A stretch of DNA of 64,000 nt from the NCBI RefSeq assembly GCF_000272005.1, contig NZ_AKKU01000025.1:153493-217492 (forward strand), read 5' to 3'. This document shows, in pieces, positions 49,486 through 54,398 of the stretch. Positions within the stretch are counted from its first letter, which is position 1. The number at the start of each line of letters is the position of its first letter. Under the pieces are notes generated by a model that saw nothing but the letters and a program-made list of their open reading frames with translations, did not search any database and had not been told where the DNA came from. The translations under genes were made by a program, and so were the position numbers. The stretch is from Alishewanella agri BL06. Lineage in GTDB: Bacteria; Pseudomonadota; Gammaproteobacteria; Enterobacterales; Alteromonadaceae.

Positions 49486-49507
49486 TTTTTCTAAGTTTTT
49501 GAGAAGA

Positions 49508-49535
49508 CAAAGGCCGCGAATGCGGCCTTTGTTTT
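49508..49535 (+). terminator. Intrinsic terminator after lpdA
   Basis: CAAAGGCCGC pairs with GCGGCCTTTG around GAAT and is followed by TTTTG. Confidence 0.88.
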
Positions 49536-49590
49536 GTTAAGAAATATATAATTACATCTATCTTAAGAATATGCTTTCAAGCAACATTAC

Positions 49591-51897
49591 TTACCCATAT
49601 CTGAAAATCGCAGATTTGCATCTTTTTAGTAATCTCTTTACATCGTGAACCTTATTCGAAGGATTGATTTCATCTTCCAACCATTCTTTAGCCTGAACAA
49701 GATATCTAAAAGCTGTATCATCTGCATACTTATCAAAATACCTAAGAGCATGATCTGCGAACGTCATTGCATGGAATACCTTTCGTATATCAGAGGAGTA
49801 ACATTCTTTTAGAGTATTTAAACTATCATCTAGAACGAGCCTTACTTCGTCAGACATGTCTCTATCAATGTTGGCTCGAAATTTAATAATGGCGTACGAA
49901 TTTTTAATTGCCCAGTTCTTTGATCCTGAGTGAGCGACTGCTTCATCAATAACTTTAAATGCCTCTTGATGATCACCTCTCCTACTTAAGTATAAAGCTT
50001 TTTGTTGGAGATTAAATGGCGAGGGGTGTTTCTTATAAATCACATCGTAGATCGCAATGCCATCTTTTATATTTGGGAACGCTTTTTCAAATAATCGTGC
50101 GTCGTACGCTTTGCGTTTAAAAATATCGTAGACAGGAATGCTGTATCTGCTCACATTCGTATGGAAACGTCTTAAAACTTGGGCAAGCACGTTTACAGGT
50201 GCCAGGTTAGAAATTAAATCTGCCAATATATTTGACCTGACAAGATACGCATCTTGATTGTAAGTTAATAAGCTACCATCGTGTTCCGCTAAATTTCTGC
50301 CAAGTCCTTCGACTAAACTATAAATTTCCTTGTAACTTAATTGGTTATCTTGGAAATATGAAATAAGAATGTCCATTGAAGCGACACTTCTTGAACGATG
50401 TAGATAACAAATAAGAACGAACAATTCAACTAGCTTGCTATCAATCCTATCTAACTGCTTTATTACACTAGTGAATCGGTCTCTTATATTAGATGACGTG
50501 CAGTTTTGTTCAATCAATTCGAATATGGATTCCCCTTCCTTTTTCTGAATTAAGGGAACTCTTCTTATATCATAAGGAATACTATCATATATGCTTTGAA
50601 CATCTTCTTCAGATATATCTGTTATATCTATTATGTCTATGTTTCTATGGAAAAAGGCATGATTTGAGGAAGATAGGTAAGCATAATCTCTTTCTGCGGC
50701 TATAAATTTATAGCTACTATTGTTAGATATCAAAGAAATTGCTTCTAATGATGACTGACTATCATCTATGAAGAATATTGCTCCGTTACTTCCAATTTTA
50801 TTTTCTATTTGATGTAGCTGCTCCTTTGTAAGGTCTTTAACAAAGAATTTAAACGCGGGTGTTTCGTAGTCAGTTGCCATCTGCATTAACAGCGTCGATT
50901 TTCCGGTTGCAGCAGCCCCAGTTATTAATACATTCTTATCACCATCAAGCATATCCTTAATTTTTCTAAAATAAGTCGTTTTAATTACTCTTTTAGAATA
51001 CGCATCACTCCAGACAGGAGTTGCACCTTGAAAAAACTCCTTGATTTCTCGATGAGTAACTTGTGCGTTGCTTGGGACTAAAATATTCTTAAATTCATCT
51101 AAATCTAGACTTTTGACATCAGTATTTTCTGGATAAATTTTGTCAAAGTAACGAAGAAAATCTAATGTGTTTGATTCAATGATGCTCAGGCCAAGAGATT
51201 TAAAATATGATATCTGATCATCATTTCCTGGCTCAGGTTTTACGACTATCCAAGAATCTTTCCTGCCGCTATCTTTCAATACATCAGATAAAGTTGCAAG
51301 AGTTCCAGCATCATTCATGGAGTATCCCCAGAATATGGTGGGGAACTCTATCATCTTCCTGCTTAGATGAGTCCATCTAGCTGGTTCTGAACTTACTATT
51401 TTTGATATGTCTAGATCTCTGAATATTAGCTCTGAGTCCGGATTTGAAATTGAACCGTGCAAGTGGTACAGATCTATAGCAGAGTTTTTATTATAGGATG
51501 CACCATTGTAATCTACATCGTTGATGTATTTTTTTTTCGAGCTATTAAATATTTTCTGTATCAGGTTGTCTATGTTTGTTGTGAAAATATTCTTTATCTG
51601 TATATTTTCAATTTTTTCGTATTCACGTTCGAAGGAAGTAACGTTAAACCTTTTTCTTAAGTATGAATCTAGCTCTTCTTTCTTGCTTCGGCTCAGGTAA
51701 GTGCATAACTGTGGTAGCTCTAAACTTGATGGGGAGTTTGGAAATTCAATCAGCAATTCTCCTTTTAGCGCATTACCAGCAGGGAGAGAGCCTAATTCTG
51801 AAGATGCATGAACGGAAAACCCTGAGCCTATAAATAAATTAATACCTGAAGATAAATGCTTTTTTAAGGTGTTTTCAAAATCAATCTTTAATTTCAT
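49591..51897 (-). CDS. SIR2-domain NTPase, Avs5/STAND-like defence protein
   Basis: Protein of 768 residues that I read as an anti-phage effector-sensor. Residues 1 to about 265 are a SIR2-like NADase domain: GSGFS (24-28), FTTNIDNL with N108 and D110, HLHGS with His147, and WGYSMND (190-196). A P-loop NTPase follows, with Walker A GAAATGKST (327-335, Lys333) and Walker B FFIDD (375-379). The C-terminal 200 residues are helical, TPR-like (LQQKALYLSRRGDHQEAFKVIDEAV). SIR2-STAND proteins of this size (Avs5) sense phage proteins and deplete NAD. Base composition (about 36% G+C by eye) differs sharply from its neighbours, suggesting recent transfer. It stands alone; no partner gene is adjacent. 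Confidence 0.82.
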   Translation of the reverse strand: MKLKIDFENTLKKHLSSGINLFIGSGFSVHASSELGSLPAGNALKGELLIEFPNSPSSLELPQLCTYLSRSKKEELDSYLRKRFNVTSFEREYEKIENIQIKNIFTTNIDNLIQKIFNSSKKKYINDVDYNGASYNKNSAIDLYHLHGSISNPDSELIFRDLDISKIVSSEPARWTHLSRKMIEFPTIFWGYSMNDAGTLATLSDVLKDSGRKDSWIVVKPEPGNDDQISYFKSLGLSIIESNTLDFLRYFDKIYPENTDVKSLDLDEFKNILVPSNAQVTHREIKEFFQGATPVWSDAYSKRVIKTTYFRKIKDMLDGDKNVLITGAAATGKSTLLMQMATDYETPAFKFFVKDLTKEQLHQIENKIGSNGAIFFIDDSQSSLEAISLISNNSSYKFIAAERDYAYLSSSNHAFFHRNIDIIDITDISEEDVQSIYDSIPYDIRRVPLIQKKEGESIFELIEQNCTSSNIRDRFTSVIKQLDRIDSKLVELFVLICYLHRSRSVASMDILISYFQDNQLSYKEIYSLVEGLGRNLAEHDGSLLTYNQDAYLVRSNILADLISNLAPVNVLAQVLRRFHTNVSRYSIPVYDIFKRKAYDARLFEKAFPNIKDGIAIYDVIYKKHPSPFNLQQKALYLSRRGDHQEAFKVIDEAVAHSGSKNWAIKNSYAIIKFRANIDRDMSDEVRLVLDDSLNTLKECYSSDIRKVFHAMTFADHALRYFDKYADDTAFRYLVQAKEWLEDEINPSNKVHDVKRLLKRCKSAIFRYG

Positions 51898-52068
51898 TTT
51901 GATACCGTCAGCCTTTTACTACTTCGTATCTGTAATTGTTAAGTTTTTCTATAAACCAACAAGCACTATAATAATTAATCAATTTATGTTTACACTAAAA
52001 TAGAATTACCTCAATTAAATTCACTGGTCAAGATTTTTTTGACTTTTATTAAAGTGAGGTATAGAAAA

Positions 52069-52185
52069 GTGACGGAGCCCGGTTTATTTCTGCCTGGTGC
52101 GGCGAGGCTAAAAGAGATTAGCCGTCATAGCGAGCAGTTGTTCTTAGGGGCAGATACTGCAAAGTTAGGTGAGTTTAGCGAGTGA
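52069..52185 (+). CDS. Small unidentified reading frame (38 aa) or gene fragment
   Basis: A GTG start with GAGGT eight bases ahead opens a 38-residue frame beginning VTEPGLFLPGAARLKEISR and ending in TGA at 52183-52185. I do not recognise it. It begins exactly where foreign-looking A+T-rich DNA gives way to native composition. It could therefore be the 3' end of a native gene cut by the insertion, or a real short gene. Confidence 0.3.
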   Translation: MTEPGLFLPGAARLKEISRHSEQLFLGADTAKLGEFSE

Positions 52186-53599: not shown

Positions 53600-53992
53600 A
53601 TGCAGCAAGCCGCTGTGCTTAATCGTTTAGTATCGCTGGCAGCCGCCAATCCTCAGATAGCGGCATTGTGGCTATACGGCTCGCGTGCGCGGGGCACTGC
53701 TGGTGACGCCAGTGACTACGATTTGGCGGTACTGTTTGCTGACTATCAAAACGATCCGGTTGAGCGTCGTTTGGCGCCGGAGTTACTGGCGTTGGATTGG
53801 CAAAGCGAGCTACCGGATATTCAATTATCTGTGCTTGATGTGCAGCAAGTGCCACTACCACTGGCTTTTACTGTAGTAAGCGACAATACCTTACTGTATT
53901 GCCGCGATGATTTTGCCCGGCTGGAGTTTGAACGCCGCACGCTGTCAAAGTGGGAAATTGATCACCTTTACCATAAGGCGCACTATGCTTAA
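53600..53992 (+). CDS. mntA: MntA-type nucleotidyltransferase antitoxin
   Basis: Minimal nucleotidyltransferase of 130 residues. It has the family motif GSX10DXD: G27-S28, then D39 and D41 (GSRARG ... DYD). In type VII toxin-antitoxin systems MntA transfers AMP groups to a tyrosine of the HEPN toxin and silences it. The gene overlaps the HEPN gene by eight bases (ATGCTTAA), the usual coupling. AAGGTG precedes the ATG by seven bases. Confidence 0.9.
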   Translation: MQQAAVLNRLVSLAAANPQIAALWLYGSRARGTAGDASDYDLAVLFADYQNDPVERRLAPELLALDWQSELPDIQLSVLDVQQVPLPLAFTVVSDNTLLYCRDDFARLEFERRTLSKWEIDHLYHKAHYA

Positions 53993-54398
53993 TGCCTATT
54001 TAGACCATATCGAAGAACATTGTAGTGCCAGCCTGGAGTTGCTGGAGCAACTGGCAACAATCGCCAGTCAGCAACCTTTATCCCGTATTGAGCAAAGTGC
54101 TGCAGAACGCCAGCTGCAAGTGTTGGTTGAAGCGGCAATTGGTGTCGCTAAACAGTGGGTCAAAGCCGTTAGTGGTTCAGCACCTGCTGATGCCTATGGT
54201 AGTTTTGAAAAACTCAGTCAACTCGGTAAGCTAAGCGGTAATGAACTGCTACAATGGCGAAAAATTATTGGGTTGCGTAATGCGCTGGTGCACGATTATT
54301 TAAATTTTAGCGTCGACGTATTGCAGCGGGTATTAGTGCAGCGGCAATTTTTACAGGTCTTTCAGTTTATTCAGCTCGCCAGTGCAGCGTTACGATAA
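53985..54398 (+). CDS. hepT: HEPN-domain RNase toxin HepT
   Basis: HEPN protein of 137 residues from the ATG at 53985. The catalytic and modification motif RX4HXY is present as R98-NALV-H103-D-Y105. HepT toxins are ribonucleases, reported to cut tRNA or mRNA, and Tyr105 would be the residue AMPylated by MntA. The frame is open back to 53907 inside mntA, but the overlap start fits the family. The order here is antitoxin first. Confidence 0.9.
   Translation: MLNAYLDHIEEHCSASLELLEQLATIASQQPLSRIEQSAAERQLQVLVEAAIGVAKQWVKAVSGSAPADAYGSFEKLSQLGKLSGNELLQWRKIIGLRNALVHDYLNFSVDVLQRVLVQRQFLQVFQFIQLASAALR

Follow-up and report, generated by a model that had tools for sequence, protein, structure and literature searches.

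We analysed a 64,000-nucleotide stretch of the Alishewanella agri BL06 genome (assembly GCF_000272005.1, contig NZ_AKKU01000025.1, positions 153,493 to 217,492; hereafter the window) and focused on one gene in it, which encodes a protein of SIR2 domain, STAND NTPase and C-terminal repeats. With a probability of roughly 0.75, this one gene constitutes a mobile anti-phage system of SIR2-STAND type, which resembles Avs5 in plan but forms a family of its own; a phage trigger, assembly, hydrolysis of nicotinamide adenine dinucleotide (NAD+) by an NAD+ hydrolase (NADase) activity and protection of the cell are predicted for it.

The reading frame is unbroken, and every catalytic and nucleotide-binding motif is in place. 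Three Pfam families matched the protein above their curated cut-offs: SIR2_2 (PF13289, expectation value (E) 1.6e-19, residues 103-240), nSTAND_NTPase5 (PF25199, 8e-14, residues 287-406) and nSTAND3 (PF20720, 3.8e-9, residues 306-380), the last of which was outscored by nSTAND_NTPase5; TPR_14 reached just 0.27. In an alignment of the window protein with five relatives, N108 (TTNID), H147 (LHGS) and K333 (GKST) were invariant, as were D378 and R403. The protein combines the features of the single-protein SIR2-STAND class, namely a SIR2_2 domain with GxGxS, TNxD and HG motifs, a STAND NTPase with Walker A and B motifs, and C-terminal helical repeats, the last as judged from a structure model with TPR folds among its structural matches. 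The top matches among PADLOC models were ThsA (4.2e-11, residues 60-221) and PDC-S73 (2.8e-6, residues 301-399).

The AlphaFold2 model, built from six family sequences, has a mean predicted local distance difference test score (pLDDT) of 71.4 and a predicted template modelling score (pTM) of 0.42. It consists of an alpha/beta SIR2 domain (residues 1-255), a P-loop NTPase (296-425), a helical region (458-540), which presumably occupies the place where STAND proteins have their winged-helix region, and an alpha-solenoid (556-767) that is mostly well predicted (Table 1). Over its whole length the model matched two solved Avs5 filaments (EfAvs5, 9jap; AVAST5, 9nah-9nc9), and its SIR2 domain matched the folds of DSR2, ThsA and KomC. 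The first-pass annotation of this DNA had read SIR2 NADase motifs, Walker A and B motifs and a helical C-terminal region as the plan of single-gene SIR2-STAND defence systems; Pfam and the model bear out this reading, including the SIR2 fold.

Table 1 Features of the SIR2-STAND gene and its surroundings (feature, position in the window, strand, evidence)
SIR2-STAND gene, 768 aa, ATG start	49591..51897	-	open reading frame listing, Pfam
SIR2-like NADase domain, residues 1-255 (GSGFS 24-28, TTNID 106-110, HG 147-148)	51133..51897	-	Pfam, model, fold matches to DSR2, ThsA and KomC
STAND P-loop NTPase, residues 287-425 (Walker A G332-K333-S-T335, Walker B D378, R403)	50623..51039	-	Pfam, invariant residues, model
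Helical region after the NTPase, residues 458-540	50278..50526	-	model
C-terminal alpha-solenoid, residues 556-767, presumed sensor	49597..50232	-	model (block pLDDT 78-93 over 601-740), TPR folds among structural matches
Conserved solenoid core, residues 575-710 (YDIF 590-593, YDA 598-600, AF 606-607, Q632, A634, D651)	49768..50175	-	six-member alignment
Palindromic hairpin after lpdA	49507..49532		read from the sequence; pattern scan did not list it
SIR2-STAND segment, where sister G146 has 271 bp (spacer and 5' part of yafN)	49534..52074		comparison with G146
yafN antitoxin remnant, C-terminal 36 codons, 72% identity	52075..52182	+	comparison with G146
MntA-type antitoxin	53600..53992	+	NF047752, 1.1e-21
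HepT-type RNase toxin	53907..54398	+	NF047751, 8.9e-21

Composition and distribution mark the gene as horizontally acquired, and it is a probable defence gene. Its G+C content (GC) is 0.351, and 0.307 at third codon positions (GC3), compared with a mean of 0.532 over 1142 other 2307-base stretches of the window (standard deviation 0.020, minimum 0.485); the A+T-richness and foreign origin noted at first pass thus stand. With the window protein as query (E<=0.001), matches were found in 11 of the 395 genomes searched from the bacterial family and in 2 of the 369 from the class, its own included in both cases, and the only full-length match was in its own genome. The same was true of the family profile (E<=1e-10), which matched 5 of 398 genomes of the phylum. 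The 30 genus mates were all part of the bacterial-family search, and none of them was among its 10 other genomes with a match, although this search was not exhaustive for distant SIR2 proteins: the Avs5 of sister genome G335 (see below) went unlisted. No relatives were found in phage records, single-protein scans of genome contigs and viral contigs gave no match, and the gene as a DNA query had none in Escherichia coli. A promoter pattern scan was uninformative (8 sites, 9.9 expected), and a search for transposition footprints at two segment borders gave only a shared 8-bp word, which we judged close to chance.

In the mechanism we propose, the C-terminal solenoid would keep the protein closed in the resting cell until a phage-encoded product binds it. 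The STAND NTPase would then exchange or hydrolyse ATP and the protein would assemble, probably into a filament, whereupon the N-terminal SIR2 domains would split NAD+ into ADP-ribose and nicotinamide and the infection would abort. Trigger binding, ATP-driven assembly and NAD+ hydrolysis are proposed by analogy with PaAvs5, which hydrolyses NAD+ upon infection and no longer protects when N110A or Walker A changes are introduced (PMC12931631), and with the filaments formed by Avs5 and ThsA (PMC12700824). What the sequence or the model does show is the domain triad, the motifs for catalysis and nucleotide binding, the intact frame, the mobile relatives and the hotspot.

Several observations weigh against this interpretation, and the whole case is built from anatomy and context. 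The pLDDT falls below 50 at residues 125-174, which include H147, and at about 588-598 (588-591 and 594-598, the YDIF/AYDA motif); because of these gaps and the pTM of 0.42, the model does not fix the packing of the domains, the active site or part of the solenoid core. The whole-length structural matches have a large root-mean-square deviation, and when the C-terminal halves were compared alone, the profile match to two Avs5 types was insignificant (probabilities of 0.3% and 0.9%). Finally, the solenoid core is conserved to a degree that is unusual for a phage-driven sensor.

Residues 575-710 are indeed the best conserved part of the new family by alignment. Among six members, mean pair identity was 46.3% in this core, where 33 of 136 positions were invariant, compared with 42.7% in the SIR2 part (1-260), 34.6% in the NTPase part (261-440) and 28.4% in residues 441-560; the tip (721-768) was variable. 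Among three proteins of the PADLOC-type Avs5 group, a small sample in which one row lacks part of SIR2, the stretch 600-720 was less conserved (24-31%) than SIR2 (29-37%). The suggestion at first pass that the C-terminal sensor is divergent therefore applies relative to Avs5 but not within the family. Either the core is a coupling hinge between sensor and NTPase and sensing takes place at the tip, or what the protein senses is itself conserved. Conserved Tyr661, Trp675 and Gln677 of PaAvs5-1 have been proposed as such a hinge (PMC12931631). Across phyla (gammaproteobacteria and clostridia), the core is no less conserved than the catalytic domain, and every instance found is joined to the same SIR2-STAND part. 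Therefore, we tentatively raise the possibility that the core is not a fast-evolving sensor of a phage protein and that the protein guards a conserved host component or senses a signal common to unrelated phages. The conserved core provides a practical way into the question of how infection is sensed by proteins of this sort.

One alternative is that the protein is a true Avs5, for example of the fourth clade of the published tree, and that it responds, as Pseudomonas Avs5 does, to activation by JADA, a protein of jumbo phages. The window protein conforms to the published Avs5 plan of SIR2 (PF13289), nSTAND3 (PF20720) and repeats, and three tested Avs5 themselves share just 18-21% identity (PMC12931631). 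The whole-length Avs5 fold was recovered in the model, and profile homology extends to Avs5 with the N-terminal parts included and the C-terminal half excepted. However, the PADLOC Avs5 model PDLC02170 did not match the window protein at E up to 10, a listing limited by the HMMER filters, which drop most matches above 0.1, whereas as a positive control it matched the Avs5 of a sister genome at 7.7e-78. We dropped the argument that a PADLOC miss means the protein is not Avs5, since the same model also missed an EfAvs5-type protein of the same bacterial family (L007 871-3324, minus strand; phmmer to 9jap, 2.9e-70); PADLOC's Avs5 model is thus narrower than published Avs5. Over 295 genomes of the order, the model gave 4 partial matches only, and an Avs5 query had no match in viral contigs. 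In both trees the window family formed its own clade, with support of 100/100 in the second, which held one EfAvs5-type row and three PADLOC-type group rows, one of them PADLOC-tested. EfAvs5 and L007 lie outside this clade and match insignificantly in the C-terminal half alone; for AVAST5 (PDLC02170, 9nah-9nc9), besides the missing PADLOC match, the C-terminus is not alignable with significance. A true Avs5 is thus unlikely. The label Avs5-type given in the first-pass annotation holds broadly, for the SIR2-STAND-repeat plan and the structural matches, while the separate clade and the missing PADLOC match speak against a narrower use. The SIR2-STAND class would thereby gain a new family that has no full-length PADLOC model match.

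Likeness to other SIR2 systems is confined to parts of the protein. DSR2 shares the SIR2 domain, with chains aligning over 222-353 residues, and ThsA aligns over the SIR2 part only. Thoeris ThsA consists of SIR2 followed by a SLOG sensor and is encoded beside the TIR gene ThsB. This identity was rejected, as the window protein has an NTPase and a solenoid instead, and no TIR was found in it or in seven neighbouring proteins scanned. The plan also differs from that of Nezha, whose SIR2 protein works with a separate HerA helicase (PMC11559045).

Seven full-length relatives outside the window share 29-37% identity with the window protein, and six of them are on mobile DNA as read from their surroundings, in one case from translations alone; the carriers include satellite, phage and plasmid. 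One relative, on an Oscillospiraceae plasmid (L012), was the sole match among 72,556 plasmid records; two are on contigs L014 and L015, one of them from Gastranaerophilales and one from Marinisporobacter, and four on distinct IMG/VR contigs (L019, L020, L085 and L160). Phage genes (terminase, portal, tail, lysis) read from translations surround the relatives of L085, L019 and L160, and serine-recombinase-like reading frames flank that of L015 on both sides, while L014 is too short to judge. The copy on the satellite contig L020 is 36-37% identical to the window protein and, by its translation, lies beside an integrase. A search of 5426 E. coli genomes found DNA of L020 in 12, in 11 of them at >=99% (99.2%) and in one at 95.1%. 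In the two copies inspected, the gene lies between a phage polarity suppression protein remnant and a tyrosine integrase next to tRNA-Leu. A member of the same family, WP_073461782.1, annotated as a SIR2 family protein, occupies the psu-int slot of a P4-like element in E. coli C21 with full length and the same domain plan; it is carried by a satellite-like element, whereas the window gene is at the chromosomal lpdA site. The psu-int slot of P4-like elements has been described as an anti-phage hotspot, and its contents include STAND proteins that may have a sirtuin at the N-terminus (Rousset et al. 2022, PMC9122126). Effector swapping, sought through the solenoid motif in viral contigs, was not seen: 16 contigs matched, and the 4 distinct ones with true relatives, L160 newly among them, all encode the full SIR2-STAND protein. 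Five partial plasmid matches of L020, L090 among them, and three partial genome matches (L016-L018) were excluded as family members; L090, a Klebsiella pneumoniae plasmid SIR2 protein, had the best hhalign score (5.4e-19) yet a very long branch, and was left out of the second tree. The Oscillospiraceae plasmid relative (L012 5998-7745) adjoins genes annotated as Ku and DNA ligase.

These carriers bear on a second alternative, in which the same NAD-depleting SIR2 output would defend against plasmids or other incoming mobile DNA. Phage and satellite elements, plasmids and the element of the recombinase contig compete with many invaders, and a conserved solenoid core would fit a signal that many invaders share. 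Known SIR2 anti-plasmid systems use Argonaute, however, and Argonaute is absent from the window protein; moreover, anti-phage activity is associated both with the plan of STAND and repeats and with the psu-int slot of P4 (PMC9122126), which makes this alternative rather improbable. It is highly unlikely that the gene is inactive remnant cargo left at a hotspot: one of the two inspected E. coli copies is annotated as three pieces, so decay does occur in the family, and the window site itself holds an older cargo remnant, but the reading frame in the window is unbroken and lacks none of the motifs. A role outside defence, as a housekeeping deacetylase of the sirtuin type or as a regulator, for which the SIR2 fold would speak, is barely credible given no match in 30 sister genomes, a scattered presence mostly on mobile DNA, and SIR2_2, STAND and repeats as the plan of defence NADases (PMC9122126, PMC12931631).

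The genomic position of the gene is consistent with an anti-phage function. Homology to the window at lpdA ended within 49487-49559 in all 30 genus mates (BLAST of lpdA loci), and within 49524-49541, at the hairpin, in 26 of them. G146 is one of two mates closest to the window genome, and there the hairpin is followed by YafN and YafO, a toxin-antitoxin pair with both genes intact. The 2541 bases before the yafN remnant of the window constitute the SIR2-STAND segment, and by this comparison the window gene stands in place of most of the YafN-YafO pair, whether through a single event or several. As the first-pass annotation had noted, lpdA adjoins the gene and toxin-antitoxin genes are nearby. 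A ParD-like antitoxin lies downstream in addition to MntA and HepT. The window copy of hepT is whole, and in G146 and G242 about 280 bp inside hepT are gone, so that 53995 joins 54278. The gap comes immediately after mntA, a gene that is complete in G146.

To judge from sister genomes, the site downstream of lpdA looks like a genus-wide defence hotspot, as had been surmised at first pass. We compared 29 of the 30 genus mates (G349 stops at a contig edge), some of which offer short stretches (<2.2 kb in G287, G327, G217 and G242; 3.0 kb in G276). Within ~3.8 kb of the lpdA stop, 76 open reading frames (ORFs) of >150 aa start, a set that includes conserved neighbours as well as cargo; 20 ORFs from 15 genomes were scanned with PADLOC and 20 proteins with Pfam. 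Recognised defence genes were present in 7 of the 29 sisters (7 of the 15 scanned). G335 has a full-length PADLOC-type Avs5 at this site (L093 2522-4885, minus strand; the positive control above), G126 has Drt3a and Drt3b, G342 a dGTPase (6.4e-70), G380 a helicase with DUF2290 as well as PDC-M11A, G318 PDC-M29A (7e-130), G063 an NsnB-like AAA ATPase (5.6e-47) and G017 a NACHT and NCH1 protein by Pfam, with only a weak mad8 match in PADLOC. A truncated ORF of G327 clustered with the dGTPase. Weak HTH-type PADLOC matches were obtained for a G097 ORF and a partial PglW match for a NERD protein of G230, while the scanned ORFs of G201, G185, G375, G384, G370 and G360 had no PADLOC match. Pfam identified a catalase among the G309 ORFs and a HipA among those of G388. 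Of the 29 sisters, 8 have a YafN homologue within 4.5 kb (7 of them together with YafO), and 3 have barnase/barstar there.

We used the stretch upstream of aceE as a control, in 13 genomes with >=4 kb on both sides (own included) of 21 compared. Downstream of lpdA, 37 of 66 ORFs had no relative in the same stretch of another genome, whereas in the control this held for 12 of 53; mean GC was 0.438 downstream of lpdA and 0.495 in the control. Because the control is itself fairly variable, the hotspot claim draws on this contrast together with the cargo itself. In 5 of the 29 sisters (G063, G254, G266, G185 and G166), the 3' end of lpdA recurs further downstream as a second copy of 49-166 bp (E<=1e-8), and G217 and G380 show weaker traces. 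Such duplication suggests that exchange proceeds by recombination through lpdA. A literature search, at the level of listings, found no paper on a defence hotspot downstream of lpdA.

The hotspot also holds uncharacterised cargo. Three lpdA-site ORFs without a PADLOC match (L106 9542-11206, L112 1729-2736 and L094 909-1745) are candidate new defence genes; one of them encodes a KAP-like NTPase and one has no Pfam match. In G230, a second, partial copy of a DUF4826 region (L052 13375-14148) lies a few kb past the first.
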